Source of the DNA: Nannocystis punicea
GTDB taxonomy: Bacteria > Myxococcota_A > Polyangia > Nannocystales > Nannocystaceae
Length of the DNA: 64,000 nucleotides
Direction of reading: 5' to 3'
Assembly (NCBI RefSeq): GCF_026965555.1
Contig: NZ_CP114040.1
Location: forward strand, 9,212,001 to 9,276,000
The position numbers and the translations under genes were made by a program. This document shows, in pieces, positions 29,563 through 64,000 of the stretch (positions within the stretch are counted from its first letter, which is position 1; the number at the start of each line of letters is the position of its first letter). Below the pieces are notes generated by a model. The model saw nothing but the letters and a program-made list of their open reading frames with translations. It did not search any database and was not told the origin of the DNA.

Positions 29563-30165
29563 GTGCCCCGCGTCACCCCCGAGCACACTGCCGCGCGTCG
29601 CCGGTTGATCCTCGACGCCGCTCGCGCAGTGTTCGCCCGCAAGGGCACCCGGGCCGCCACCATCGAGGACATCTGCGCGGAGGCAGGCATCAGCGCGGGA
29701 GGCATCTACACGCACTTCCCGAGCAAGGCCGCGATCCGCGAGGCAATCCACGCCGAGGCGCGCGCGGCGAACCGGCGGTTCCCCGCGGCCATCCGCGCGG
29801 CCCCGGACCCGCTCGCCGCCCTGCAGGACATGGCGGGCGACATGTTCAAGCTCCTCGACGCGCCCGAGCTGCAGGCCGACCACCGCATGTCCTTGCAGAT
29901 GCACGCGGACGCGGTGACCGACCCCGAGCTGGCGGCCAGCTACGCCGAGATCCACGTCGACATGATGCATGCCATCCGCGGCATCCTCGACGAGGCCGTC
30001 GCCGGCGGTCGCCTGCCCGAGACGCTCGACACCGAGTACCTCGCGTGGACGATGGTCGCGCTGTACCAGGGCGCCCGCGTCCAGAAGCTCCTCGTGCCGT
30101 CGCTCGACACGGCCCGGCTCGGCCAGATGGTCCGCCGGCTGTTGGCGGGCGTTCTGGGGGGATGA
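29563..30165 (+). CDS. TetR-family transcriptional regulator
   Basis: The product is 200 residues from the GTG at 29563, which has GGAGG five to nine bases upstream; an in-frame GTG at 29551 is less likely. The N-terminal HTH is textbook TetR: RRRLILDAARAVFARKGTRA, then IEDICAEAGISAGGIYTHFP. The C-terminal ~140 residues are the helical ligand-binding domain. It lies 76 bases after the hydrolase gene on the same strand, so it may autoregulate that operon or the convergent DUF1993 locus. Confidence 0.9.
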   Translation: MPRVTPEHTAARRRLILDAARAVFARKGTRAATIEDICAEAGISAGGIYTHFPSKAAIREAIHAEARAANRRFPAAIRAAPDPLAALQDMAGDMFKLLDAPELQADHRMSLQMHADAVTDPELAASYAEIHVDMMHAIRGILDEAVAGGRLPETLDTEYLAWTMVALYQGARVQKLLVPSLDTARLGQMVRRLLAGVLGG

Positions 30166-37492: not shown

Positions 37493-37967
37493 GGTGAGGG
37501 CGAAGCAGGTCCCAAAATTATTTTTGACAGATCTGCCGCCGGCGCGATGCTCGGGCAGCCCTTGCGGCGCATCCGCCAGATCGATGACTTGAAATCCGAC
37601 ATGAACCAGGACCGCCGCGTTCCCTACCAGGGGTCCCCGTGCAGAGGGTCCTCCGTCTGTGTCCGTGCGTCCGTTCGGTGCCGATGGGAACGTACTTCTA
37701 ACTTCTACCGCTCCTGCGCGGTCCAGCCAGGCGCATCGGTCGCCGCGCCGCCGCAACGCCACCCGTGCACGCAGACTCCGCCCATCGTTCGGATTCGGAG
37801 CTCCATCGCTTCGCGCCGGTGCTTGCATCCGCCCGGCTTCTGCCGCATAGTCCAGGTCAAGATCGCTCGCGTCGCTGTGTGCATCGTTGAGGGCCAGGAG
37901 TCACGAGAGAGCCGCCGTGACCGATCCGCGACGCAGCTCGCGCGGCTTCTCCTCTCTAGGCAACATT
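37493..37967. other. Divergent intergenic region
   Basis: This holds the presumed divergent promoters of the nitroreductase operon and the AraC-type regulator. A short AT-rich patch (CCCAAAATTATTTTTGACAG, 37512-37531) is the best promoter candidate. No gene is supported. Confidence 0.35.
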
Positions 37968-38981
37968 ATGGTTCTCGGCGGCGATCCCAAGGCACCCTCA
38001 CCGATCTCGCGCATCTCGCGTTCGGATCTCGAGCTGCTGATGCGGACGCTCGAGGTCAGCTTTGTAAGGCTGTCCGAGTGTGTCGTCAGTTCGGGCTTCG
38101 GTCTCATGCTCGGTAGCCACGACGCGCCCGGTCTCCACTACAACCTCCGTGGTCATGGGGTCGGTTACATCGGCAACGGTCCAGCGATCGAGCTCGAGCC
38201 CCATACGATGATCATCGTTCCGCCGCACTCTCCGCTGCGAATCGACGTACCCGGAGCGCGTTCCTCATCGACCGTGAAGCTCGTCGACGGAAAGACCAAC
38301 TGCACCCTCATCGATGGGGTGCATCGCTACGTCGCCGGCGGCGGAACACCAGATGTCCTCATGATCTGCGGCTTCTTTCACGCTGTCTATGCGTCGTCGA
38401 TCAGTCTGTTCGGCACGTTGTCTGCGCCGATCGTCGAGCGATTCGAGGCGTGCAATATGCTGGATCAGACGCTGAAAGCCGCGCTCGCCGAGCTCGTCTC
38501 CCAAGAAGTTGGTGCGCACGCGATGTCCTCTGCGCTGCTGAAGCAGGTGATCGTCACATTGCTGCGCCGCGCTCTCTCGTCGCCGAACTCGTGGGTCGAG
38601 CAGTTTTCGCTGCTCCGAGATCCGCAAATCGCGCGAGCGTTCGCTGTCATGGTCGATAATCCGGGAGCACCGCACACCGTGCAGAGCCTCGCGGGCAGCG
38701 CGTCGCTGAGCCGGTCGGCGTTCATGGCTCGCTTTCATGACGTCATCGGCCGCTCGCCCATGCTCGTGTTGCGAGATCTGCGCATGCGGCAGGCGGCGCG
38801 CCAGCTGACGTCGGGGACGTATTCGGTCGAACAGGTCGCGGCGAACGCTGGATACGAGAGCCGCAGCAGCTTCATTCGTGCATTCCGGAACACATTCGGG
38901 CTCGATCCCTCGAGTTTTCGAGCCTCGAGACTGTCCGTCAGCCCGAGCTCAGCTGTCGGTTTCGATCTGGACGAGAAGTAG
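37968..38981 (+). CDS. AraC-family transcriptional regulator
   Basis: The product is 337 residues from the ATG at 37968. The N-terminal ~200 residues resemble the cupin-like ligand-binding domain of the AraC_N type (HYNLRGHGVGYIG, MIIVPPHSPLRIDV). The C-terminal ~100 hold the double HTH: HTVQSLAGSASLSRSAFMAR with FHDVIGRSPMLVLRDLRM, and YSVEQVAANAGYESRSSFIR with FRNTFGLDPSSFR. It is divergent from the nitroreductase/AhpD operon and probably controls it. Lower GC and codon use suggest acquisition together with those genes. Confidence 0.9.
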   Translation: MVLGGDPKAPSPISRISRSDLELLMRTLEVSFVRLSECVVSSGFGLMLGSHDAPGLHYNLRGHGVGYIGNGPAIELEPHTMIIVPPHSPLRIDVPGARSSSTVKLVDGKTNCTLIDGVHRYVAGGGTPDVLMICGFFHAVYASSISLFGTLSAPIVERFEACNMLDQTLKAALAELVSQEVGAHAMSSALLKQVIVTLLRRALSSPNSWVEQFSLLRDPQIARAFAVMVDNPGAPHTVQSLAGSASLSRSAFMARFHDVIGRSPMLVLRDLRMRQAARQLTSGTYSVEQVAANAGYESRSSFIRAFRNTFGLDPSSFRASRLSVSPSSAVGFDLDEK

Positions 38982-40982: not shown

Positions 40983-41930
<948 letters not shown>

Positions 41931-42417: not shown

Positions 42418-43656
42418 TCACCGATTGAACGGTCGACTCGTCTCCTGAGCGAACCCGGCGAGCAGCTCCGCCGCCCGGGCCGCTCCACCCGCGCGATACA
42501 GCCCGTCGCCGGCCTCCTGGACTCGGGCCGCCATGTCCCGATCCGCGAGCGCTGCCTCGATTCGACCCTGGAGCGCCGCCGGTTCGCAGTCTTCGGCCCG
42601 CAGCCAGACGCCGAGACCCAGCGCCTCCATGTGCTCGGCGAAGATCGGTTGATCCGCACCCTGGGGGAGCATCAACATCGGCACCCCGGCGAGCAGGGAC
42701 TCGAACACGCTATTGGTCCCGGCGTGGGTGATGAAGACCGACGCGCGCTGCAGGACCGCGAGCTGGGGCACGTAGGGGCGGACCAGCGTGTGCGGGGGCG
42801 GCGGCTCGAGGGCGCTGGTGTCGGCAGCGCCCACGGCGACCACCGCGCCGTAGCGACCCTCCGCGAGCGCCTCGAAGACAGCGCGGAAGATGTCACGCCG
42901 GTCGTTGTAGAGCCGCATCGAGCCCAGCGAGGCGTAGACCAGCGGTCGAGGCAACGCGGCGAGCGCGGCGGTGAAGGCCGGGTCGTCGTCCGCGCTCCGT
43001 TCATCGTAGCAGGGGCCGACGAAGTGATAGCTCGCGTCGAACTCCGCGCGCCGCGGTTGCAGCTGCTCGGAGGTGTAGACGAGGTTGATGTCGCCGCGGA
43101 GGTTCATGCAATTGGGAATGCCGGGCAGGACATCGTCGCCGTGCGTGCGGGTGACCGCGAAGCGGTCGGCGCAGCGCGCCCAGGCCGCTCGATCGCGGGC
43201 CTCGATCCGCCCGATCTCCGCCTCGCTCCGACCCGGCCACCGCGCGGCGAAGACCGCCTCCGAGACCCGAGCTCCCCGAGGCCACAGGGCGTTGGTGTGC
43301 ACGACCGCGGTCGGCAACCCGCACAGCTCGGCGGCGATGGCGGCCCACAGGCACTTGGCGGTGTACACGACGAGCGCCGGCCGCAGCGCCCGCAACATCT
43401 CGACCAGCGCCGGGACCGCCTCCATCGAGTAGTCGATCGTCCGCAGGTTCACCGTGCAGTCCGGCGGCTCGTAGCCGAAGGGCGGCTGCAGCACGACCCT
43501 CGCGCCCGAGGCGGCCACGAGCTCACGGTAAGGCTCGAGCGTGAACGCGTGGACCCGATGACCGCGCTCGACCAGCGCGCGGACGATCGGCAGCGTCGTC
43601 ACGAGCCGCGAGTGGTAGGGGATGTCGAAGAAAGCGATGTCGAGACCGGTCGTCAT
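42418..43656 (-). CDS. UGT/MGT-type glycosyltransferase (GT1)
   Basis: The product is 412 residues. The N-terminal domain opens AFFDIPYHSRLVTTLPIVRA, the acceptor-side pattern of GT1 enzymes. The C-terminal donor site has YASLGSMRLY, then VRPYVPQLAVLQRASVFITH, HAGTNSVFESLLAGVPMLML and PQGADQPIF, as in macrolide-type glycosyltransferases that use NDP-sugars. The ATG at 43656 overlaps the TGA of the methyltransferase gene by four bases (ATGA), so the genes are translationally coupled. It probably glycosylates the cluster product or inactivates it inside the cell. Confidence 0.9.
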   Translation of the reverse strand: MTTGLDIAFFDIPYHSRLVTTLPIVRALVERGHRVHAFTLEPYRELVAASGARVVLQPPFGYEPPDCTVNLRTIDYSMEAVPALVEMLRALRPALVVYTAKCLWAAIAAELCGLPTAVVHTNALWPRGARVSEAVFAARWPGRSEAEIGRIEARDRAAWARCADRFAVTRTHGDDVLPGIPNCMNLRGDINLVYTSEQLQPRRAEFDASYHFVGPCYDERSADDDPAFTAALAALPRPLVYASLGSMRLYNDRRDIFRAVFEALAEGRYGAVVAVGAADTSALEPPPPHTLVRPYVPQLAVLQRASVFITHAGTNSVFESLLAGVPMLMLPQGADQPIFAEHMEALGLGVWLRAEDCEPAALQGRIEAALADRDMAARVQEAGDGLYRAGGAARAAELLAGFAQETSRPFNR

Positions 43657-44206
43657 GGTTCGCGCCTCGCGAGGGCCCACACGTGGTAGGGAAAATCTGG
43701 CTCATCGGTCAGGTCGTGGATCGCCGGGTCATAGACCACCCAATCGTCGAAGTTCGCGGCGACGCAGGCGCGGTTGCCCCACGAGCCGGTGCGGATCGGC
43801 GCCAGCGGGAAGCCGCACTCGTGCAGGAAGTGCTTGAGGCCGAGCTCGGTCCAGCGGGTGCAGTCGACCGGGTAGCGGTGCACCTTGACCAGGAACGGCA
43901 CCGACACGAGGAACCATCCGCCCGGCGCAGCATGTCGTGGACGTTGCGCCCGGCGCGGTATGGATAGAGCAGGTGCTCGAAGACCTGCTCGGCGATCACG
44001 AGATCGAAGGTCTCCGCCAGCGGACCGGCGCAGACGTCGAACTCGGGGAACTCGGCGCTGCGATAGCTGGAGAAGCCGAAGTCGCGCCAGCGCCGGCCGG
44101 AGATCTCGAGCGCGTCGAAGCCGGCGAACGGGAGCGACCGCAGCCACTCGTTGCACGCCTCGTTCATCACGATGCGGCTCCACGTCATCATCGATGGATT
44201 GGTCAC
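43653..44206 (-). CDS. SAM-dependent methyltransferase, frameshifted
   Basis: A GTG start at 44206 overlaps the ABC gene stop (GTGA). The first frame reads [20 protein letters not shown] (SAM loop), then [16 protein letters not shown], typical of class I methyltransferases. At about 43921-43925 the frame breaks: one extra C in CGCCGGGC restores [20 protein letters not shown] and the rest to the stop at 43653, about 184 residues. Since the gene is embedded in a tight operon with overlapping start and stop codons, a sequencing deletion seems more likely than a true null. Possible targets are an N- or O-site on the peptide or lipid product. Confidence 0.75.
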
Positions 44207-45834
44207 GGCGAAGCCTCCGGTGCGGGCGCACTCGCGGCGGCCGCGGCGGCGACCAGGCGACCGTCGTCCAGGTGCAGCCGGCGGTCGGCCAGGTGGAAGA
44301 AGCGGGCGTCGTGGCTGATGGCGATCACCGTCTTGCCCGCGGCGCGCATCTCGGGGACGAGCGTCTCGTAGAAGTAGCGGCGGAGCTCGGGGTCCTGGTG
44401 AGCCGCCCACTCGTCGAGGACGTAGATCGGCCGGTCCTCGAGCAGCGCGACCACCATCGCCAACCGCTTGCGCTGACCGGTCGACAGCTCGAGCGGGGCG
44501 AAGCGCCCGTCCTCGAAGCCCACGATCCCCTCGAGGTTGAAGCGGCGCAGCAGGGCCTCGACCCGCGCCGGGTCGGAGACGTCGAGGCCGTACGGCAGGC
44601 CGAAGAGGTGGTGATCCATGAAGACCGAGGTGAACAGGCCGCGGTAGGTCGCGCGCAGCTGCGGCGAGAGCGGACGCTCGTCGAGGCGGATCTCGCCGCG
44701 CTCGGGCGGATAGAGGCCGGTCAACAGCTTCATGAGGGTGGTCTTGCCGCTGCCGTTGCTGCCGGTGATGAAGACGACCTCGCCGCGGCCGATGCTCAGA
44801 TCCACGGGGCCGACCGTGAACGTGGGTCGACCCTCGTCGACGTAGCTGAAGGCCGCGCCGCGCAGCTCGATCTGCTCGAAGCTCGTCCGCAGCGCGGGCT
44901 CCGATTCGGCCGCGGCCCCGCGCCCGGCGAGGGCCTGCTCGAGCGCGTCCAGGCGGGCGAGCGCGGCCTCGGCGGTGGCGAACACGTGGAGCTCGCGGAC
45001 CAGATAGATGACGGCCGCGAAGCTCAGGAACAGCACGGTGACGACCTCGAAGCGGATCGCCGGCTCGATCGTCGTCTCGACCGGGCGAAACAGCAGGAAG
45101 CCGAGGAAGTAGATCGTCGTCGCCGTGACGGGCCCCTGGTACACCGACTTGTAATGGTGCCCCGCCGCCGCGTCGACCTCGCGGCCGGCGGCGAACGCCT
45201 CGGCCCGCAGCGCCGCACCGGCCGCGGGATCCATCTTGAGCTGGGCGAAGCCGCGGGTGAGCTGCTCGACGAGCCGTCGCCGGCGCGACCAGGCGTGATC
45301 GAGGACGACGCCCGTCTCTCGCGCGTCGCGTCGCTCGCCGTGTAGCCGCCAACCGAGCAGCGAGAGGGTCGCTACCCACACGAGCGCGCCCAGCGGCGCG
45401 AGCGCGGCGAGGTAGACGCCGAGCCCGATGAGCATCATGACGTAGACGAGGCAGTCGATGAGCACCGGCGTGACCGCCTCGAGCTGCTCGATGTCGCGGG
45501 TGAACCCGGCCGCGACGCCATCGAGCCGCTCGAAGACGCGGAGCTCGGCGGCGCGGATCCTGGCGAACAGCCGGCGACGGCGCTCGAACAGCGCGGCCTC
45601 GACCTGATTCATGATGCGCAGCGCCCCGCGCCAGCGCAGGACGAACCCGGCCGCGAGCAGCGCGGCGAATACGAGACCGGCGCCGATCTGGACGCCCGCC
45701 GTACTCGGGTGGAGCACGGTGCGGTTGAGCAGCGCGAGCTGCCCGGCGACCAGGAGCGCCGAGGCGGCGAGCATGACCAACCCGCGCCGCATCACCTGGC
45801 GAGCGTCGCCCGGGAACAGCTCCATCAGGCGCAT
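44203..45834 (-). CDS. Cyclic-peptide-type ABC exporter, fused TM-NBD (second)
   Basis: The product is 543 residues. Six TM helices in the first ~300 residues ([39 protein letters not shown]) are followed by an ABC ATPase with Walker [10 protein letters not shown] near residue 357, signature [11 protein letters not shown], Walker [15 protein letters not shown] and switch His AISHDARFF. The STGQRKR and DEWAA-QDP motifs mark the SyrD/PvdE cyclic-peptide exporter group. The ATG lies inside the end of the upstream ABC gene (10-base overlap) with GGAG seven bases ahead. It probably pairs with that protein to export the product. Confidence 0.9.
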
Positions 45835-47489
45835 ACCGGCTCCATCCTGCCGCCGTGGAAGTGAAACCGGCGGTCGCAGGCGTCGAACGCGTCGTCGTCG
45901 TGGGTGACGGCCACGACGGTCTTGCCGCGGGCGCGCAGCGACGGGAGGATCCGGCGGTAGAACGCCTCGCGGAAGTGCGGGTCCTGATCGGCGGCCCACT
46001 CGTCGAACACGTAGATCGGTCGATCCGCGAGGAGCGCGACGATCAGCGCCAGGCGCTTGCGCTGGCCGGTCGAGAGGTCGACGGTGGTGAAGCGGCCGTC
46101 CTCGAAGCGGACCTTGTGGCCGAGCTCCATCTCCTCGAGGAGCGCGGCGACCCGCGCCGGATCGACGTCCTCGATGCCGTAGAGGCGCTCGAACAGCGCG
46201 ACCTCGGCGAACACCGCGGCGAACCGGCTGCGCCACGCGGGGCCGGGGTCGGCGGGCAAGGCCTCGCCGTCGACCCGCAGCTCGCCGCCGTGGCGCCGGT
46301 AGAGCCCGCAGAGCAGCTTGATGAAGGTCGACTTGCCGCTGCCGTTGGCGCCGGTGACGAATACGACCTCGCCCGGGACGAGCTCGAGGTCGCAGGGGCC
46401 GACCGCGAAGCCTGCCCGGTCGTCGCGTGGCTCGTAGCGATAGCTGACCCCGCGGAGAGCCAGCGACGCGAACGGCTGCGGCGGCGTGCTCGCCTCGGTC
46501 CGCTGGTCGGCCAGGCCTTCGAGTCGATCGGCGAGGTCGATCATCCGCTGCCAGGTCGCGCCGAGCCGCGTGAGCAGCGGCGCGGCCATCAGCAGCATCA
46601 GCACGGGCCGGAAGATGAAGGTGACCGCGACCAGGAGCCGGCTGACCTCGGCGGCCGCGTCGGGCACCACCACCGGGAGGATGAAGCCGATCGCGGCGAG
46701 CAGCGCCAGGTAGACCTGGCGGGTCAGCGTGTCGCGGGCGAAGAACTCGGCGTGGTGGACGTCGCGGCTGCGCCGCAGGGCCTCGGCCTCGCGCTCGAAG
46801 GTTGCGGCGACCGCCGCGCTGCGGGCCCCGTGCTGCTTCAGCTGCTTGAAGCCGGCCAGCAGGTCGTCGATGGGCTCCTGCATGCGGCGGAGGGCGGCCC
46901 GATCGCGGGCCATCTGGTCGGCGACCGCGTGATCGATCCGGGCGATGAGGAGCGCCGTCGCCACCATCGCCACGCCTGCCACCAGCGCCGCTTGCAGCGA
47001 GATCGTCGCCACGTAGAGGGTGGACAGCGCCACCGTCGCCGCGGCCACGAGCGCCTGCGTGACGATCGTGCCGCCGGGGATGATGCGACCCGCGTCGCCG
47101 GTGACCCGGCCGACGATCTCGGCGCCGCCGATCGCCTCGAAGCGCTCGAGATCGAGGCGCCCGGTCGCGTCGAGGACCCGCTCGGTGGTGCGCGACACGG
47201 CCGCGGTGAGGGCGTCGAGGACCCGCTGCGAGAGGGCTCCCTGGTAGCTCGCGTTGACCGCGACCGCCACCACGAAGGTGAGCAGGGCGCCGATGGGCAG
47301 GCCGACGTCGGCCGCGGCGTCGAGACCCTGGTCGACGCTGTGGAGCACCAGCACGTTGGCCGCCGCGACCAGGCCGATCTCGACCGCCCACGTCCGGTGC
47401 GAACGACCGTCCTCGGCGACGATGAGCGCGAGCAGGCCGCCGACGCTCGCGCGCGCGTCACGGCCCGAGTCTGCGGTCGGCCCGGTCAT
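45825..47489 (-). CDS. Cyclic-peptide-type ABC exporter, fused TM-NBD (first)
   Basis: The product is 554 residues. TM helices ([59 protein letters not shown]) precede an NBD with Walker [10 protein letters not shown] near residue 380, signature [11 protein letters not shown] near 470, Walker [15 protein letters not shown] near 490 and [13 protein letters not shown]. This is the SyrD/PvdE/YojI type that exports peptide natural products. It and the next gene are similar but not identical, as expected for a heterodimer. No N-terminal C39 peptidase domain is present, so leader removal must be done by another enzyme. Confidence 0.9.
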
Positions 47490-47571: not shown

Positions 47572-47751
47572 CTACTCGTCCTGCTCCGCCTGCGGCGCGG
47601 GTCTGGGCCCCGCGGCGACGAGGATGAGGAGCGCGACGAGCGGCGTCAGGGCCATGGCGATGACCGCGAAGCCGAGGAATCCGGCCCGGCGCCGGCGGCC
47701 GGCGACGCCCACGACGACACAGGCGAGGAGGTAGAGCGGGTGGAGGTTCAT
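47572..47751 (-). CDS. Small two-TM membrane protein in export operon
   Basis: A 59-residue frame begins MNLHPLYLLACVVVGVAGRR and continues with a second helix (FAVIAMALTPLVALLILVAAG), ending in a polar PAPQAEQDE tail. The ATG is 10 bases after the SPFH stop, with GAGG upstream, and the ABC gene starts 82 bases further on. Two TM helices separated by a basic RRRR loop give a clear hairpin topology. Such small proteins often accompany transporters, but its role is unknown. Confidence 0.7.
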   Translation of the reverse strand: MNLHPLYLLACVVVGVAGRRRRAGFLGFAVIAMALTPLVALLILVAAGPRPAPQAEQDE

Positions 47752-47761
47752 GACGGGGTCC

Positions 47762-48664
47762 TCACGGTGCGCTCCCCGCCCCCGGGCCCGGGGCAGCTGG
47801 AGCCGCTGGAGCGTCGGCGCCGAGGATCACCGGGAGCTGGCCGTCGCCGCTCCCCATCAGGATGACCTTGCTGTTCGCCGAGGTCGCGAGCTTCTCGGTC
47901 GCCTCGATCCCGCGCCACTTGAGGATCGACAGCCCGCTGACCGCCTCGAACTCGTGGATCCCCTCGGCCTCGGTGGTCCGGCGGATCTTCTCCAGCTCCT
48001 CGCGCTCGAGGCGGAACTTGTAGCTCAGCATCTGCTGCTCCTCCGCGAGCTTGGCCTGGATCGCGGCCTCGACCGCTTCGGGGAGGCGGAGGTCGAGGAC
48101 GAGGACCGACACCAGCGCGAAGAAGCGCGGGTCGAGGTCCTTCTCGAGCGTGCGTCGCAGCTCGTCGAGCAGGCCGAGCTCGTCCTTGGCGTAGATCATC
48201 TCGGGCGTGTAGTTGCCGAGCACCTTGCGCAGCGTCGAGGTGGTCTCGGGCACGATCACCTCGTCGACGAAGTTGGGCCCGATCTCCTTGTGAAACAGCG
48301 GCAGGTCGGCCTCGAGCAGGTGGAACCGGACCGACATGTTGACCGTGATCTCGAGCCCGTCCTGGGCGTAGACCACGGTCGTCGGCCGGCTCTGCAGGTC
48401 GCGCAGGTCGTAGACGTAGAGCTTGTCCCACGGCCAGGTGAGGAGCGTGCCCTCGGCGAACGATCGCTCGGTGACGGTGCCGCCGCCGAAGCGCTTCCAC
48501 AGCACGGCGCGGTGGCCCGGGAGGATCTCGTGCACGATGTCGTCGAAGAAGAACGAGGCGACGAGGAGGACGACGACGAGCAGCGTCTTCGTCCACCAGA
48601 CCAGCTGACGCCAGAGTCTGAGGCCCAGGCGCTTCAGGCGGCCGGAGGAGGTCGTCGCTGCCAT
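47762..48664 (-). CDS. SPFH/prohibitin-family membrane protein
   Basis: The product is 300 residues. One N-terminal TM helix (WWTKTLLVVVLLVASFFF) leads to an SPFH/Band-7 domain (ILPGHRAVLWKRFGGGTVTE, then PWDKLYVYDLRDLQSRPTTV and GLEITVNMSVRFHLLEADLP), followed by a long helix rich in Glu/Arg/Ala (EAAIQAKLAEEQQMLSYKF) that usually drives oligomerisation. The C-terminus is a Pro/Ala/Gly tail. SPFH proteins form ring or cage scaffolds in membranes. Its position between DUF697 proteins and exporters suggests it organises export or protects the membrane from the product. Confidence 0.85.
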   Translation of the reverse strand: MAATTSSGRLKRLGLRLWRQLVWWTKTLLVVVLLVASFFFDDIVHEILPGHRAVLWKRFGGGTVTERSFAEGTLLTWPWDKLYVYDLRDLQSRPTTVVYAQDGLEITVNMSVRFHLLEADLPLFHKEIGPNFVDEVIVPETTSTLRKVLGNYTPEMIYAKDELGLLDELRRTLEKDLDPRFFALVSVLVLDLRLPEAVEAAIQAKLAEEQQMLSYKFRLEREELEKIRRTTEAEGIHEFEAVSGLSILKWRGIEATEKLATSANSKVILMGSGDGQLPVILGADAPAAPAAPGPGAGSAP

Positions 48665-48691: not shown

Positions 48692-49252
48692 TCACTGGGG
48701 CGCCTTGCCCTTGAGGTCCTTGAGGACCGTCCTGCCGGCCTCGACCTGCGCCTGGAAGTAGTCGCGGAACTTCTCCGGGTCGAAGTCGAGGAAGGTCCCG
48801 CCGGAGCCGAAGTGGGCGGTGAAGACCCGGCCGATCGCGTAGATCAGCGAGCCGGCGAGGGCCGGCGAGGCGGCGGCGGCGAGCGGGACGCCGACGATCG
48901 GGATCACGCGCACCAGCGAGTACGCGGCCGCGGTGGCCAGCGGCGCCGAGGCCCCGCCGAGCAGCGCGGTGACGGCCGACTTGCCGATGTGCCCGCGGAA
49001 TTCGACCCCGTAGTAGCGGGCCAGGCTGTGCAGCATCTTCAGCGCGCATCCGCTGGTCGTGGCGAAGTCGAGCAGGGGGACCGGGAGGATCGCCAGACCC
49101 GCGCCGATCTTCGTCCACCGCAGCACGATCGCGTCGGCGCCGCTGGTCGGCGGCAGCTTGCGGCCGGTCGGATCGCACGCGGCCTCGGGCCTGCGCCCGC
49201 CCGGGTCGGTGGTGTCCGTGGTCTTGGTGGAGGGAGTGGTCGTGTCGGGCAT
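48692..49252 (-). CDS. DUF697-like membrane-associated protein (second)
   Basis: The product is 186 residues from the ATG at 49252 with GGAG upstream. A Thr/Pro/Asp N-terminus leads to a DUF697-like core: KIGAGLAILPVPLLDFATTS, then ALKMLHSLARYYGVEFRGHI and two hydrophobic segments (PLATAAAYSLVRVIPIVGVP, ALAGSLIYAIGRVFTAHF). The C-terminal helix FDPEKFRDYFQAQVEAG is shared with the neighbouring paralogue. These proteins sit at membranes; function unknown. The gene is a tandem paralogue of the next one upstream. Confidence 0.75.
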   Translation of the reverse strand: MPDTTTPSTKTTDTTDPGGRRPEAACDPTGRKLPPTSGADAIVLRWTKIGAGLAILPVPLLDFATTSGCALKMLHSLARYYGVEFRGHIGKSAVTALLGGASAPLATAAAYSLVRVIPIVGVPLAAAASPALAGSLIYAIGRVFTAHFGSGGTFLDFDPEKFRDYFQAQVEAGRTVLKDLKGKAPQ

Positions 49253-49266
49253 CGTCGTCTCCGAGG

Positions 49267-49848
49267 CTATGGGGTGAACGGTCGCTTGGACCCCGACTGC
49301 GACGGCTTGCCGCGCCGGATCTCCTCGACCACCAGCTTGTTGCGCGCGAACTCCTGCCGGAAATGGTCCCGCATCGCCACCGCGTCGAAGTTCAGCAACG
49401 TGCCGCCCGACTCGAAGTGCATCATGAAGACGTTGCCGACCGTCTGGGTCAGCGCCGCGGCGGCGATCGGCATCGCCACCAGGCCGAACGCGGGGCCGAG
49501 CGCGGGGACGAGCTTGAACACGCTGGCGACGAACGCGTAGGACAGCGTCTGGGCGCCGAGGGCCGCGATCAGCGAGCCGACGATCGCGCGGGAGCGGCTC
49601 TCCGAGAACTCGACGCCGTAGACCTGCGAGAGGTCGCGGATCATCTTCAGCTGGGAGGCGAGCACGCCGGCGGCGTCGACGAAGGGGATCGGGATCGCGC
49701 CGAGCCCGAGCGACCAGTACACTTGCCGCCGGATCAGCTGCCTGGCCTGCTCGCCGCGAGTGTCGGCCAGATCCGTCAGGACGGCCGTGTCTGCTGCGTC
49801 GGGGGGTTCGACCTTCGACTCGACGGTGGGCGGCGTGACTGACGACAT
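49267..49848 (-). CDS. DUF697-like membrane-associated protein (first)
   Basis: The product is 193 residues from the ATG at 49848 (MSSVTPPTVESKVEPP), with GAGGAG about five bases upstream; the frame stays open further upstream but crosses the hairpin. The core matches the paralogue: LGLGAIPIPFVDAAGVLASQ, QLKMIRDLSQVYGVEFSESR, two hydrophobic segments, then HFESGGTLLNFDAVAMRDHF. It is the first gene after the precursor peptide. A pair of DUF697 proteins plus SPFH may form a membrane assembly for maturation, export or self-protection. Confidence 0.75.
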   Translation of the reverse strand: MSSVTPPTVESKVEPPDAADTAVLTDLADTRGEQARQLIRRQVYWSLGLGAIPIPFVDAAGVLASQLKMIRDLSQVYGVEFSESRSRAIVGSLIAALGAQTLSYAFVASVFKLVPALGPAFGLVAMPIAAAALTQTVGNVFMMHFESGGTLLNFDAVAMRDHFRQEFARNKLVVEEIRRGKPSQSGSKRPFTP

Positions 49849-49871: not shown

Positions 49872-49915
49872 AAAAACTCGGGGAGGTGATGGCGCGTGCG
49901 GATGCACGCGCCATC
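49872..49915 (-). terminator. Hairpin between peptide gene and DUF697 gene
   Basis: GATGGCGCGTGC and GCACGCGCCATC form a perfect 12-bp stem with a four-base loop (49888-49915), seven bases after the tandem stop codons of the peptide gene. A TTTTTA tract follows 11 bases beyond the stem and lies just before the next ribosome site. It is a candidate partial terminator or RNA-stabilising stem that would make the peptide transcript more abundant than the downstream genes. Confidence 0.65.
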
Positions 49916-49923
49916 GTCCACTA

Positions 49924-49989
49924 CTACCAGTAGCGGTTGGTGTTGAGCTTGCGGTCGGCCACGGTGATGGTCTTGATGGTCTTCTTCAT
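49924..49989 (-). CDS. 21-residue RiPP precursor candidate ending in Arg-Tyr-Trp
   Basis: The product begins MKKTIKTITVADRK and ends LNTNRYW, followed by two tandem TAG stops. Support is strong for so small a gene: GGAG nine bases before the ATG, a TTGACA-type promoter about 90 bases upstream, a stable hairpin right after the stops, and a position at the head of an operon with peptide exporters. In crocagin biosynthesis the C-terminal Ile-Tyr-Trp of a tiny precursor, CgnA, becomes a pyrroloindoline. A Tyr-Trp C-terminus beside two paralogous candidate peptide-binding proteins suggests the same chemistry here with core Arg-Tyr-Trp. The Lys/Thr/Ile-rich start would be the leader. The alternative is a regulatory leader peptide. 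Confidence 0.8.
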   Translation of the reverse strand: MKKTIKTITVADRKLNTNRYW

Positions 49990-50052
49990 GGTTTTACTCT
50001 CCGGACATTCCGTTGCGCGCAGAAACACTCTACGCGAAAGAAAGTCGGGCTC

Positions 50053-50082
50053 AAGCTATCTCGGTCGTTCAAACGATGTCAA
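50053..50082 (-). promoter_or_regulatory. Sigma70-like promoter for the peptide operon
   Basis: On the minus strand a perfect TTGACA (50077-50082) is followed after 18 bases by TAGCTT (50053-50058), or after 16 bases by GATAGC. Either gives a plausible -10. The start site would lie about 50 bases upstream of the peptide ribosome site. Confidence 0.5.
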
Positions 50083-50116
50083 CGATCATTTTGCACCGAC
50101 GGGCCCCTTTGCTGCG

Positions 50117-50166
50117 TGTAAGCGCATTACAGGCGGCTCATCGCGCTGTAAGTGCATTGCAAGCGG
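50117..50166. promoter_or_regulatory. Two operator-like dyads 30 bp apart
   Basis: TGTAAGCGCATTACA (50117-50131) is a perfect TGTAA-N5-TTACA dyad, and TGTAAGTGCATTGCA (50147-50161) is a near copy. The homology extends to 20 bp (…GGCGG and …AGCGG) with three mismatches. The 30-bp spacing places both on nearly the same face of the helix. Lying between divergent operons, they probably bind a dimeric regulator of the cluster. Confidence 0.6.
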
Positions 50167-50183
50167 GCACGACCAGTCGACAG

Positions 50184-50198
50184 TGAAATATCATTTCA
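50184..50198. promoter_or_regulatory. TGAAAT-N3-ATTTCA dyad
   Basis: A 15-bp perfect inverted repeat lies in an AT-rich patch about 75 bases upstream of the rightward operon's first start codon. It may be an operator or overlap the rightward promoter. Confidence 0.45.
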
Positions 50199-50272
50199 GC
50201 TTCAAATGTTCGTTCGCCTCGGATAACTTCCGCGGGCGCTCGGGCTCCGCTCGCTCGCGCGAATACACTGTC

Positions 50273-51235
50273 ATGCAGGCGACCACCTTCTTCAAGCGAC
50301 TGTTCGATCGCACCATGCCGGTCCTCGTCGACGACGCGCGGCACCTGCCGTTCCTCGCCCGGCGGGGCTTCACGGCCCGCCCGATCGGCGACTTCGACTT
50401 CGCGTCGACGACGGCGCAGCCGGTCTTCGTCATCTTCACCGAGGCGGCCGCCCACGAGGCGTTTCTGCAGCGGTGGGGCGAGATTCCGGGGATCACCGCG
50501 CACCTCTCGCTGGCGAAGTTCGACACCTCGCCGGAGATCATCGAGTACTCGATCGACCAGCTGCTGGACATCGACTTCGCGGCCACGCTCGCGCGCAGGA
50601 GCGCGCATTACGACGCGATCCTCTCGTGCGACTACGCCGAGGTCACGCCGCCGCACGGGCCGCTGCGGTGCTCGATGGGCGAGTCGGTCGAGATCGCCAA
50701 CCGCGACGACGAGATGGAGCCCGGGTGGCTGTACTCGGTGTCCGAATTCCTCGAGGCCTCTCTGGTCAACATCGAGCGCGACCGCTCGACCTTCTGCCTC
50801 GACGGCGAATTCGCGTTCGACGGCCTCATCTATCTGTTCAACAACCCCGAGCTGCGCAGCCGCGTCGGCTGGATGCTCGAGGAGTGGGTGCGTCTCGCCG
50901 CGCGCGGCGGCAACTCGGCCACCCTGGTGGGCAACAGCGTCACCCGCCTGACCCTCGGCGGGCTCGACCGGACCGAGCAGCTGTTGGAGCTCACGGGCGG
51001 CAAGGAGCGCCAGAGCGCCGCGACCGAGTTCGCGTTCGGCTGCGTCGACTACTCGCTCGCGGCCCAGGACTGGTCGCGCAACTCGGTGATGCACGAGAGC
51101 TTCTGGGGGATCCACGTCGGCATCGGGATGGGACAGGACATCCCCCACTTCGACCTGATCGCCCGGCGCGCCGAGTGCCGCCACCTCCATCTCGAGCCGG
51201 CGTCTCCGGCCGAGCACGCGCCGCCCCCCGCGTGA
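50273..51235 (+). CDS. Candidate precursor-binding protein (CgnB/CgnE-like), first
   Basis: The product is 320 residues. The start at 50273 is chosen because MQATTFFKRLFDRTMPVLVD aligns with the start of its paralogue at 60996 (MNTSDYFRALQAGRVTIVVD). Shared blocks are SVSEFLEASLVNIERDRSTF, followed by FDGLIYLFNN, and a C-terminal GIHVGIGMGQDIPHFDLIA. The C-terminal pattern recalls M29-type aminopeptidases, but the metal-ligand set looks incomplete, so binding rather than hydrolysis is likely. In crocagin biosynthesis the homologues CgnB and CgnE bind the precursor and guide ring formation. That assignment here is inferred from pairing and context. It is the first gene of the rightward operon. 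Confidence 0.65.
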   Translation: MQATTFFKRLFDRTMPVLVDDARHLPFLARRGFTARPIGDFDFASTTAQPVFVIFTEAAAHEAFLQRWGEIPGITAHLSLAKFDTSPEIIEYSIDQLLDIDFAATLARRSAHYDAILSCDYAEVTPPHGPLRCSMGESVEIANRDDEMEPGWLYSVSEFLEASLVNIERDRSTFCLDGEFAFDGLIYLFNNPELRSRVGWMLEEWVRLAARGGNSATLVGNSVTRLTLGGLDRTEQLLELTGGKERQSAATEFAFGCVDYSLAAQDWSRNSVMHESFWGIHVGIGMGQDIPHFDLIARRAECRHLHLEPASPAEHAPPPA

Positions 51236-51271: not shown

Positions 51272-59289
<8,018 letters not shown>

Positions 59290-59293
<4 letters not shown>

Positions 59294-60999
59294 GCTTCGA
59301 TCTGCCCAGCCTCGCGCGCCTGTTGGTGCTCAGCGCTGGTTACTGGGCGCTGGACGTCGCAGTTCGCCGCGGCCTGCTGCACCGGCTGGCCGACGCCGCG
59401 GGCCGACGTCACCGCGCGCTCGCCCCGGCCCTGGGGGCCGGCGGCCTGGCGGTGCTGGTGGCGACATGTCCCTGGGAACATGTCCCGCAGGTCGAGGTCG
59501 CGCGGGTGTTGATGCTCGGTCTGAGCGTCATGTTGACCTGGAAGGTCGTCACCAAGGACCTCGATCCGGCGATCGGCGAGAGCCACGCGGGGGCGCGGCT
59601 CGCCATGCTCGGCGCCTGCGTCGGCCTGTGGTTCAGCCCGGCGTTCGTGCTGGTGGTGTTGCTGCAGCTGACGCGGCCGTTCGCGCAATGGCGACACCAC
59701 GCGATCCTCCCCCTGCGCTCGCTGCAGGCGGCCGCGGCGTTCGTCGCCGTCGCCCAGCTGGCCGCGCCGCTGCCTGACTTCGCGGCCGCCTACGCGCCGG
59801 ACGCCGCGACCCTGCTGTTCTTCGTCCTCACGATCCACGCCTCGCACTACGTCAGCGCCGGCCTCGCCAAGGTCCGACTGGGCGACCGCTGGTACTCGTG
59901 GGTCCGCGACAATCGCCTGCACTACATGGCCGCCAACGCCTACGCGTGGGGCTGGGGTCGCTTCGTCTCGTGGCCGACCTGGCGCAGGTTCGTGCGGCTC
60001 ATCGCGCGCGGCGACCGCCCGCTGCAAGCCGGCAGCCTGGCGCTCGAGCTGCTGGCGCCGCTGGCCCTGCTCGCGCCCGAGGCCGCGCTCCTCGCCTGCG
60101 CCGCGTGGTCCGCCTTCCACCTCGCGGTCCTCGCGTGCGGCGCGTTCTGGTTCTGGGACTGGGTCGGCGCCAACCTCGTGCTCGCGCTCGCCCTGCTCGC
60201 GCTGCCCGAATCGCAGTACGGCGCGCTGTTCGGCTGGCAGTCGGTGCTGGCGTCGGTCGCCTTCATCGCCGTGTTTCCGCTGCGCAACCGCCTGTGGGGG
60301 CCGACGCTGCTCGCGTGGTGGGAGACCCCCTTCACCCAGCGGATGCACTGGCTGGTGCGCGGGGAGAGCGGCACGACCTACGAGGTCTACAGCGACTTCA
60401 TGTGCCCGCACGAGCGGCTGTACGGCAAGGTCCACGCCTGCTTCCTCGCCCCGGTCCCGCTGATCACCTCGCACCTCGGGACCGTCTGGGACGCCGCGCA
60501 TCGGGACGCAGTGTGCGCCGCCGGGCCCGAGCCGCAGGGGCTCGACGCGGTGCGCGCTCGCTTCGGCGTCCAGCCGCGCGACGAACGGCTGGCGCGCAAC
60601 CACGTCGACTACCTGCATCGATTCTTCGGCTCGCTCAACGCCGGCGCGCGCAAGCACGTCCTGCCCGCGTGGCTCCGCTGGCTCAAGGCGCCCGGCGGGC
60701 ACTACTATTATTGGGGCGACCTGCCGGCGTTCCGCGGCCAGGAGCGGGTGGTCGCGGCCAGCCTCCGGTTCCGTGAGCAGTACTTCGACGGCGAGCAGCT
60801 GGTCTCGATCCGCGACGAGCTGGTGCAGGAGCTCGTGATCGACGAGGCCTCGGCGCGGCGGCCGTGCGAGCCGGAGCCGACGTCGCGGGAGGTCGAGCTG
60901 CTCCTGGGCGCGGCCTTCTGGCGCAGCGAGCCCCTGGACTACCACGCGATCCCGAAGGCGCCGACCGGCGCGCGGCTCGAAGAAGCGAGGGCGAAATGA
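59290..60999 (+). CDS. HTTM/vitamin K carboxylase-like membrane protein
   Basis: The product is 569 residues. The ATG overlaps the megasynthase stop (ATGA). The first ~350 residues hold many TM helices, with the HTTM-like stretch HYVSAGLAKVRLGDRWYSWV and ANAYAWGWGRFVSWPTW. The C-terminal ~200 residues are soluble (TYEVYSDFMCPHERLYGKVH, then GGHYYYWGDLPAFRGQE). HTTM proteins are related to vitamin K-dependent gamma-carboxylases, but most bacterial ones have unknown chemistry. A role in modifying or transferring the lipid or peptide product at the membrane is likely from context only. Confidence 0.65.
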
Positions 61000-61907
61000 A
61001 CACGAGCGACTACTTCCGCGCGCTGCAGGCCGGGCGCGTCACCATCGTCGTCGACGATCCCGCGGCCGCCTCGCCGTGGCTCGACCTCGGCGAGGTGACG
61101 ACGCTCGCCGCCTACGACCTGCTCCGCGAGCACGACCGGCCCGCGCTCGTCGTGGCCTCGCGGCTCGAGACGGTCGGCCGGCTCCACGAGACGTGGGAGG
61201 ACTCGCCGTGCGAGTTCACCTACCTCTCGCTGGCTCGCCACGACCCGAGCGAGGCGGCCGCCCGCCACGCCGCGGCGCTGCTGCGGGCGCTCGACGGCCC
61301 GGCCGCCCTGACGCTCCGCGCCGAGCGCTACGACGCGCTGCTGTCGAGCGACGTCCTCGAGGTCGCCGGGTCGCTGCGCGTGCGCCTCGGCGGCGAGCTG
61401 GAGATCGCCAACATGAGCGACGAGGTCCGGCCTCACTGGCTGCAATCGACGACCGAGTTCCTCGAGGCCTCGATCGTCAACCTCGAGCGCGACGGCTCGA
61501 GCTTCACCGCCGACGGCGTGTTCGCCTTCGCCGGCCTCGCCTACCTGTGCAACTCGGCGGACGTGCACGGCCGCCATGGCGACGCGCTGCGGCGATTGCT
61601 GCGAGCGGCGGCCGGCGGCGACAACCGCCTCGAGCTCGCCGACAACCGCGTCGAGCGCGTCGTCGTCGGCGGGGTCGACGTGACCGCCGCCTTCTCCGCG
61701 CTGTTCGCCGACGACGAGCGCGGCGCGACGGTGCTCGAGCTCGGCCTCGGCTGCGCCGGTCTCGCCCCGGACTGGACGATCGACTCGCCGCTCCACAAGG
61801 GCAGCCGCGGCCTCTTCCTCGGCGTCGGCACCGGCCATCGCGGGCCGCACGTCGACTTCGTGGCGCCGGAGGCGAGCGTGCGCTTCCAGGAGCCGCCGGC
61901 AGCGTGA
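60996..61907 (+). CDS. Candidate precursor-binding protein (CgnB/CgnE-like), second
   Basis: The product is 303 residues. The ATG overlaps the stop of the HTTM gene (ATGA). It is a paralogue of 50273-51235: LEIANMSDEVRPHWLQSTTE, FLEASIVNLERDGSSFTADG and the C-terminal SRGLFLGVGTGHRGPHVDFV all have counterparts there. Compared with the paralogue the N-terminal half is shorter and more diverged, which fits two distinct roles on one precursor, as reported for CgnB and CgnE. M29-aminopeptidase-like ancestry is possible from the HVDF motif. Function is inferred from context. Confidence 0.65.
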   Translation: MNTSDYFRALQAGRVTIVVDDPAAASPWLDLGEVTTLAAYDLLREHDRPALVVASRLETVGRLHETWEDSPCEFTYLSLARHDPSEAAARHAAALLRALDGPAALTLRAERYDALLSSDVLEVAGSLRVRLGGELEIANMSDEVRPHWLQSTTEFLEASIVNLERDGSSFTADGVFAFAGLAYLCNSADVHGRHGDALRRLLRAAAGGDNRLELADNRVERVVVGGVDVTAAFSALFADDERGATVLELGLGCAGLAPDWTIDSPLHKGSRGLFLGVGTGHRGPHVDFVAPEASVRFQEPPAA

Positions 61908-63273: not shown

Positions 63274-64000
63274 ATGCTCGACCACGACACCCTCCAATCC
63301 GAGAAGCTCCAATTCTGGCGCGACGGCTTCGTCGTCGTGCGGAACATGTTCACGCGCGACGAGATGGCGGTCGTCAAGCGCAAGGTCGCCGAGATCGAGG
63401 CGATGAACGCACGAGTGGACCACCTGCGGACGCAGCAGGCGCTGGGCGAGCACCCCTCGTTCGAGACCATCTTCGTCTGGAACGACGTCGTCGGCGACGA
63501 CCTCTTCGCCAAGATCGGCCGCTCGTACAAGATCCTCGACCGCCTGTCGCACTATTACGAGGACGACGTCTACGACTATCACAACAAGATCGTGCTCAAG
63601 TACCCGGGCATCGTCGGCTTCCGCCCGCACCAGGACTACGCGTATTGGCAGGGGTACGGGTGCCGCTTCCCCGAGGCGCACGCGGTGTTCGTGGCGGTCG
63701 ACGCGGCGACGCGGGAAAACGGCTGCCTCAAGCTCGTCCCGCGCTCGCACCTCCTCGGCACCCTGCCCCACGGCGGCTGGAGCGCCCGCGGCAGCGACGA
63801 CGGCGTCCTGCCGGAGGAGCTGGAGGCGCTGTTCGCCAGGGGCTACGCCTTCGAGCCGATCGAGGCCGAGCCGGGCGACGCGATCCTGTTCCACGGCAAC
63901 ACCATCCACGGCTCCGACGACAACGGCTCCGACCAGCCGCGGATCGCCATGGTCGCGACCATGAACACACGGCGCAACAGCCCCGATCCGCGGCACAATC
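63274..64000 (+). CDS. PhyH-type Fe(II)/2-oxoglutarate oxygenase, partial
   Basis: The frame starts at the ATG at 63274 (GGAG nine bases upstream) and is still open at the window end after 242 codons. It opens LQFWRDGFVVVRNMFTRDEM, typical of PhyH. Iron ligands are seen in FRPHQDYAYW (His ~119, Asp ~121) and NTIHGSDDNG (His ~212), with a 2-oxoglutarate-binding Arg in SDQPRIAMV (~223). Such enzymes hydroxylate or oxidatively cyclise substrates. It is a candidate for oxidising the Tyr or Trp of the precursor, or the acyl chain. The C-terminus lies outside the window. Confidence 0.85.
   Translation, partial: MLDHDTLQSEKLQFWRDGFVVVRNMFTRDEMAVVKRKVAEIEAMNARVDHLRTQQALGEHPSFETIFVWNDVVGDDLFAKIGRSYKILDRLSHYYEDDVYDYHNKIVLKYPGIVGFRPHQDYAYWQGYGCRFPEAHAVFVAVDAATRENGCLKLVPRSHLLGTLPHGGWSARGSDDGVLPEELEALFARGYAFEPIEAEPGDAILFHGNTIHGSDDNGSDQPRIAMVATMNTRRNSPDPRHN

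Follow-up and report, generated by a model that had tools for sequence, protein, structure and literature searches.

A crocagin-like cluster at the locus

The window analysed here is the whole 64-kb stretch C1:9212001-9276000 of a genome that consists of a single contig (C1) of 13,228,663 bases, and window coordinates above 64000 refer to the genome beyond the end of the window. The surrounding assembled region of 162 kb has a GC content of 69.7%. Judged by its predicted proteins, the cluster is crocagin-like, with a precursor ending in RYW and a CgnB/CgnE pair. The genes that concern us are the following.

42418..43656 (-), glycosyltransferase (UDPGT / EryCIII-like)
44203..45834 (-), cyclic-peptide-exporter-like ABC transporter 2 (TIGR01194, 235 bits, below the cut-off)
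45825..47489 (-), cyclic-peptide-exporter-like ABC transporter 1 (TIGR01194, 272.8 bits, below the cut-off of 286.2)
47762..48664 (-), SPFH/Band 7 protein, minus operon
48692..49252 (-), DUF697 protein, minus operon
49267..49848 (-), DUF697 protein, minus operon
49924..49989 (-), CgnA-like precursor of 21 aa, MKKTIKTITVADRKLNTNRYW, ending in RYW; leading gene of the minus operon, preceded by GGAGAG as a good ribosome-binding sequence
50273..51235 (+), CgnB homologue, first gene of the plus operon (PDB 6zsv, E 6.9e-96; CgnE 6zsu, E 1.9e-67)
51272..59293 (+), megasynthase with AMP-binding, KS, AT, two PP-binding matches, class III aminotransferase and condensation
60996..61907 (+), CgnE-like second copy, with Lys and Phe at the CgnB ligand positions Glu274 and His280 (by eye)
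63274..64128 (+), PhyH-family dioxygenase, overrunning the window end at 64000; candidate counterpart of CgnC
68973-69971 (C1:9280973-9281971; L004:6974-7972) (-), FHA protein, 5 kb past the window end (PF00498, 58.6 bits, cut-off 20.7)
71679-72824 (L004:9680-10825) (+), AmcB-type, cyclophane-forming radical-SAM maturase (AmcB model, 458.4 bits, cut-off 425)
L004:13480-14490 (+), DUF697 fused to a lamin-tail domain (LTD), with an operator upstream

The PDB entry 6zsv is titled as an uncharacterized protein, and we take it to be CgnB. The six zinc ligands of CgnB, which are named in the crocagin paper (PMC10070186), are all present in the CgnB homologue when the positions are mapped by eye. In the second copy, the Lys and Phe are comparable with the Lys and Tyr of CgnE at those zinc positions. 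The first domain of the megasynthase is read as FAAL-like, the profile match itself being to AMP-binding, and no carrier domain lies downstream of its condensation domain.

A second PhyH-like gene, near 70406, scored 21.9 bits against a cut-off of 22; it bears the common operator described below and precedes the gene of the AmcB-type maturase. The operator-bearing genes include three DUF697 proteins (48692-49848, minus strand, and L004:13480-14490, plus strand). A possible counterpart of the N-methyltransferase of crocagin-like clusters lies at about 43650-44300 on the minus strand, where a methyltransferase-like protein, recognised by eye, is seemingly split over two frames. Either the gene is disrupted or the sequence contains an error, and the split stretch (about 43.65-44.3 kb) gave no Pfam match. 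A Ser/Thr protein kinase gene (40983-41846, minus strand) adjoins the left edge of the cluster and its product is a possible phosphorylation partner of the FHA protein, although Ser/Thr kinases of this type are common in these bacteria.

Three dyads lie in the divergent promoter region

The preliminary description of this DNA had reported two TGTAA-type dyads and one TGAAAT dyad between the two operons. All three are present as described, and they exceed what shuffles of the window produce.

50117..50131 (no strand), operator dyad 1, TGTAAGCGCATTACA, perfect 5-bp arms; one base off the consensus TGTAAGTGCATTACA
50147..50161 (no strand), operator dyad 2, TGTAAGTGCATTGCA, one arm mismatch; one base off the consensus TGTAAGTGCATTACA
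50184..50198 (no strand), dyad 3, TGAAATATCATTTCA, 6-bp arms, the TGAAAT variant; two arm mismatches to TGTAA-N5-TTACA

The dyads occupy the gap between the two operons, whose first gene starts are at 49989 (minus) and 50273 (plus), and dyad 3 fits the 15-bp frame of dyads 1 and 2 in a symmetrically changed form. With at most one mismatch, TGTAAN5TTACA matched twice in the 64-kb window compared to a mean of 0.00 in 100 shuffles, and TGAAAKN3MTTTCA matched once, again with a mean of 0.00 in shuffles. Dyad 2 starts 30 bp past the start of dyad 1, which by arithmetic at 10.5 bp per turn is 2.86 helical turns, and the next interval of 37 bp is 3.5 turns. A second pair of sites (67043/67101) is 58 bp apart, or 5.5 turns. 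Helical phasing, which had been proposed for these dyads, is thus weak as a general rule.

The motif is concentrated in the cluster

We searched the whole genome for the motif, with the reversed pattern in the same genome as a control. Exact TGTAA-N5-TTACA occurs at three places in 13.23 Mb (none for the reversed control), and all three fall within 17 kb; the two besides dyad 1 (9279043 and 9279101, 58 bp apart) lie 17 kb downstream, 3 kb past the end of the window. Allowing one mismatch gave eight places compared to 13 for the control, namely C1:9262117, 9262147, 9279043, 9279101, 9282319 and 9287422, and the distant 11410103 and 11663861. Allowing two gave 165 compared to 472. The motif is therefore not over-represented as such, and its clustering is the striking feature: six of the eight one-mismatch places and all of the exact ones fall within C1:9262117-9287436 (25.3 kb), in four promoter regions, while sites are very rare elsewhere. 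When the two seed sites are excluded, four of the remaining six one-mismatch places are still within 25.3 kb of the seeds, which by our own arithmetic would have a probability of about 3e-9 if places were uniformly distributed. In a 20-kb locus (L004) that includes the FHA gene, four sites were found compared to a mean of 0.01 in 200 shuffles. The pattern TGWAAKNNNMTTWCA occurs at four places in the genome, all in the cluster (control 0), although this pattern was written to include dyad 3 and is post hoc for that dyad. Between 42 and 78 kb, TGTAA with a gap of 5 is the only exact dyad family with at least three copies and more than two A/T in the five-base arm. Taken together, these results show that the motif is not scattered at chance frequency but is concentrated in the cluster, although its genome totals are below those of the control from one mismatch on.

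Two sites were set aside. The one-mismatch site C1:11410103 is about 1 kb from a gene of an FHA paralogue and was counted as chance, and a two-mismatch site at 67320 lies inside the M3-peptidase gene.

The central five bases were not used in the site search. When the six strong sites were written in one orientation, the best common core was GTGCA with 22 of 30 matches, and random sets agreed as well in 1 of 400 cases at GC 0.5 and in 8 of 400 at GC 0.7. The resulting 15-base consensus TGTAAGTGCATTACA has four places with one mismatch (9262117, 9262147, 9279101 and 9282319), all in the cluster, and no place anywhere in the genome with two. At three mismatches there are 13 places, the cluster site 9287422 among them, while the reversed control gave 9 per strand. 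Counted by eye, the exact-arm site 9279043 has four mismatches to TGTAAGTGCATTACA and the TGAAAT variant has five; because these two fit poorly, the central bases are a tendency and not a rule. Five operator strings were not found in the literature searched.

Four promoter regions carry the predicted operators

The six strong sites and the variant are all upstream of predicted gene starts, with some sites falling within longer mechanical open reading frames. They are distributed over four regions.

Region (a), 50117, 50147 and 50184: between the CgnA-like precursor/transporter operon and the CgnB/megasynthase operon
Region (b), 67043 and 67101: between an epimerase gene (minus, start 66938) and an M3-peptidase gene (plus, start 67259)
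Region (c), 70319: flanked on one side by the FHA gene (minus, 68973-69971) and on the other by the PhyH-like gene (start inferred near 70406), which is followed by the radical-SAM gene
Region (d), 75422: upstream of the DUF697-LTD gene

Since the operators reach the AmcB-type maturase, the sites would unite the crocagin-like pathway with further peptide chemistry. In region (a), a home-made sigma-70 scan of both strands of the 162 kb pointed to two promoter-like sequences.

50201..50229 (+), TTCAAA-N17-TAACTT, plus operon, rank 3 in the scan
50053..50082 (-), TTGACA-N18-TAGCTT, minus operon, rank 7 in the same scan

The corresponding transcription starts are predicted near 50236 and 50046. 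A strict promoter scanner found no promoter in 49900-50320. Dyads 1-3 are all between the two outward-facing -35 sequences and cover neither promoter-like sequence, with the end of dyad 3 being 2 bp before the -35-like sequence of the plus operon. This placement of all three dyads between the two outward-facing promoter-like sequences favours activation. At the M3-peptidase and PhyH-like genes, the operator overlaps the best -35-like sequence of the home-made scan, and at the epimerase gene it overlaps the best -10-like sequence; such overlaps would suit a repressor, while AT-rich operators themselves raise -35-like and -10-like scores. Activation appears to be the most likely sign of control, with a likelihood only a little above even.

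Two related clusters lack both the operator and the FHA gene

Of 317 genomes of the class, four (the present one among them) gave a CgnB homologue, as did 3 of 377 genomes sampled over the phylum. In the cluster of genome G011, the precursor MTKKTPKTVTPTDRKQNGNRYWKNPKSVSSTDRKTNANRYW (C51:153053-153178, plus strand) is a two-unit version of 41 aa with two NRYW ends, which suggests that two cores may arise from one precursor. The G011 counterpart of the megasynthase is 52% identical over residues 688-2640, and at a distance of about 5 kb from the cluster genes of G011 a kinase is encoded that is 44% identical to the one at 40983-41846. In genome G512, the CgnB and CgnE sequences correspond to those of the solved crocagin proteins when compared by eye, and a frame ends in MKKTIKQISAGDRSKKGNIYW, the G512 precursor being identical to MKKTIKTITVADRKLNTNRYW at 12 of 21 positions (by eye). 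Neither of the PhyH genes (63274-64128 and near 70406) had a tblastn match in 34 kb of G512 at E 1e-6. In a third genome (G360), there was one weak CgnB-like match (E 3.9e-6).

Conservation of the operator in related clusters was not borne out, which leaves the motif with no footprint across species. With at most two mismatches, TGTAAN5TTACA was absent near the G011 cluster genes (one site, at 194473, is far away), in 34 kb of the G512 cluster and in 19 kb of G360. No other repeated dyad took its place by the measures used: in the G011 cluster, there was no exact-arm dyad family with at least three copies and more than two A/T, and no clear operator among one-mismatch dyads, and in G512 no exact dyad family with at least three A/T in the arm reached three copies. 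Among 28 other genomes of the family, G017 and G019 each had one exact TGTAAKN3MTTACA, and three had one match to the reversed control. We rejected the G017 and G019 sites, which are from the same genus, as orthologous operators; their 3-kb surroundings match the present region only by short or low-complexity stretches, and no CgnB homologue was found in either genome.

The gene of the FHA protein follows the same distribution. No FHA homologue was found in 80 kb of the G011 cluster at E 1e-8, the G011 member of the FHA family being on a different contig (C61) outside the cluster, and in 34 kb of G512 even the best FHA match was non-significant (E 0.84). The operator and the FHA gene are thus absent together in the G011 and G512 clusters, which fits a dedicated pair, in two cases only.

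An FHA protein is the candidate regulator

The preliminary description had noted that no regulator gene is visible inside the cluster. This holds within the window; beyond its end, the operator-bearing genes include one for an FHA protein that probably also contains a winged helix. The C-terminal part of this protein, about 130 residues, is conserved in a family with seven matches in its own genome. The proteins of this family, about 300 aa long with an FHA domain and this C-terminus, gave matches in 74 of the 377 genomes sampled over the phylum, with up to 10 per genome. The C-terminus had no relevant Pfam or PDB profile match, and a shallow comparison with eight OmpR-type domains of the same genome was non-significant (P 0.079). 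When 69 C-terminal sequences (52 after filtering) were aligned by hhalign with 22 OmpR-type domains, the score was 28.7 over 73 columns (P 1.3e-4, probability 54); the global mode gave a probability of 6 (P 0.0017). None of 150 column-shuffled controls reached 28.7 (top 20.9), and the reversed control scored 15.4. We read the C-terminus as a probable OmpR-like winged helix.

OmpR-type winged helices usually bind direct repeats, which makes for a poor fit to a palindrome and counts against the FHA protein. In addition, autoregulation is doubtful because about 350 bp separate the FHA start from the closest good operator. A site at 69934 (TGCAAGACGATTACC) at the FHA start was rejected as an autoregulatory operator; counted by eye, it has two arm mismatches and five mismatches to the full consensus.

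The surroundings of the FHA paralogues were also searched. Sites with at most two mismatches numbered 10 in 557.5 kb compared to about 7 expected at the genome rate, where the 557.5 kb are the surroundings of 39 paralogues plus one locus (L062) that was fetched for its own site, one of the ten. The notion that all FHA paralogues recognise TGTAA-type dyads was therefore rejected, as the sites near them are at about chance level, and the paralogues may differ in their DNA target. Exact six-base arms were looked for upstream of 25 paralogues, and three dyads turned up in two of these regions, none TGTAA-like; this search was so strict that even the site near the FHA gene in the cluster itself escaped it, and it carries little weight. 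When the upstream regions of four paralogue groups, each with four members, were aligned, no operator-like dyad was seen by eye among the alignments listed. We know of no operator described for the family with FHA plus this C-terminus, and a narrow literature search, judged by title, gave no paper on one. The FHA-winged-helix protein is the best candidate for reading the dyads, and we predict its binding with about even confidence.

Discussion

We propose that the predicted operators are 15-bp inverted repeats, TGTAA-N5-TTACA, most of them near TGTAAGTGCATTACA, with arms about one helical turn apart, and that one dedicated transcription factor would use all seven copies, six strong ones and a symmetric variant, which are spread over 25 kb in four promoter regions. 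Such a factor would place the crocagin-like pathway, a peptidase and a second peptide maturase under joint control. It would most likely be the FHA plus winged-helix protein (68973-69971), binding a phosphothreonine partner and activating transcription. The sites are very probably true operators. That the operators are private to the cluster is well supported by the concentration of sites, and the earlier suggestion of cluster-specific operators between two divergent operons gains from the same result. For the proposal as a whole, with the dyads as operators of a dedicated factor, most likely the FHA-winged-helix protein acting as an activator, we judge the chances to be a little better than even.

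The same private operator could instead be read by a classical dimeric factor of the TetR, GntR or MarR kind that is encoded elsewhere or went unrecognised, with a different role for the FHA protein. An inverted repeat of 15 bp whose arms are spaced by 10 bp is a fitting target for small dimeric helix-turn-helix proteins, some operators overlap -35-like or -10-like sequences, and a TetR gene (29563-30165) and an AraC gene (37887-38981) lie about 20 kb and 11 kb to the left. However, neither of these genes has a site with at most two arm mismatches beside it, and because there is no site within two mismatches of the consensus outside the cluster, such a factor would not control itself. Moreover, 21 of the 22 genes in 42418-76489 were scanned with Pfam or NCBIfam and showed no known helix-turn-helix family; the scan excluded a 59-aa frame (47572-47751), and a simple gene caller can miss small genes. 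We regard a dimeric factor as a real possibility, though one that falls well short of even.

TGTAA-type palindromes resemble the sites of several broad regulators, and a global regulator with the cluster as one among many targets had also been suggested. It is difficult to reconcile this resemblance with three exact and eight one-mismatch places of which six of the eight are in one 25-kb stretch, with the lack of any site outside the cluster within two mismatches of the full consensus, or with the 28 family genomes, where the only exact sites are in two genomes without a CgnB homologue. A global regulator is already largely refuted and has a very small probability. It is also improbable, if less so, that the dyads are due to chance or are a transcript or DNA feature without a binding protein. 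The higher reversed controls (13 compared to 8; 472 compared to 165) and the lack of conservation in relatives speak for chance, and chance dyads could explain the genome totals, but they do not explain the clustering before genes and the shared central bases.

On the dedicated-factor proposal, the analysis yields an exact predicted operator for an uncharacterised natural-product cluster, and the operator marks a likely regulon boundary that lies beyond the window. The regulon would tie the crocagin-like pathway to the megasynthase, the peptidase and the second peptide maturase. Should the FHA-winged-helix protein prove to be the factor, a DNA target would be at hand for a family with matches in 74 of the 377 genomes sampled over the phylum. 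More speculatively, a phosphorylation-sensing FHA-winged-helix switch might jointly activate the crocagin-type peptide pathway, a beta-amino-acyl polyketide line and the radical-SAM cyclophane maturase. Since no carrier domain follows the condensation domain, this domain might attach an acyl chain to the amine that is freed in the modified RYW core, giving a lipidated crocagin, a ribosomal-polyketide hybrid. We consider this extended scheme and its lipidated product rather unlikely.

The cluster resembles that of crocagin from Chondromyces crocatus, as described in PMC10070186, in several respects: the 21-aa precursor ends in xYW with Lys2, Lys3, Lys6 and Arg13 in the same places, the CgnB/CgnE pair has one zinc site intact and one changed, and there are ABC transporters and a PhyH-type dioxygenase as a candidate counterpart of CgnC. 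According to the same source, a glycosyltransferase is found in all crocagin-like clusters except that of crocagin itself, and one is also present here. The CgnB/CgnE copies are about 9.8 kb apart in the present cluster, compared to less than 2.1 kb in all cases reported in PMC10070186. In contrast to crocagin, the plus operon here encodes an AMP-ligase-KS-AT-aminotransferase-condensation megasynthase; neither polyketide nor fatty acid is mentioned in the main text of PMC10070186. In the literature searched, the term crocagin-like occurs in the crocagin paper and in a lichen metagenome, and crocagin, polyketide synthase and fatty acyl-AMP ligase were not found together, although the supplementary tables of the crocagin paper, which list the other clusters, may contain a cluster with such a megasynthase. 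A further difference from crocagin is that the operator here is common to the AmcB-type maturase, and no operator of this kind was found in the crocagin-like cluster of G512.

Cluster-situated regulators of natural-product clusters have private operators in several promoter regions. The present system is like them in that its predicted operators are confined to one cluster and occupy several promoter regions, and it differs in that the candidate is an FHA plus winged-helix protein rather than a TetR, LuxR or SARP protein. EmbR is an FHA-containing transcription factor with a winged helix at the N-terminus, whereas that of the candidate is probably at the C-terminus. The EspM model NF052403 matches only the FHA part of the present protein (24.3 bits compared to a cut-off of 550). 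What the candidate would share with EmbR and with EspM, the latter as described in PMC11005418, is an FHA domain and a DNA-binding region in one protein.
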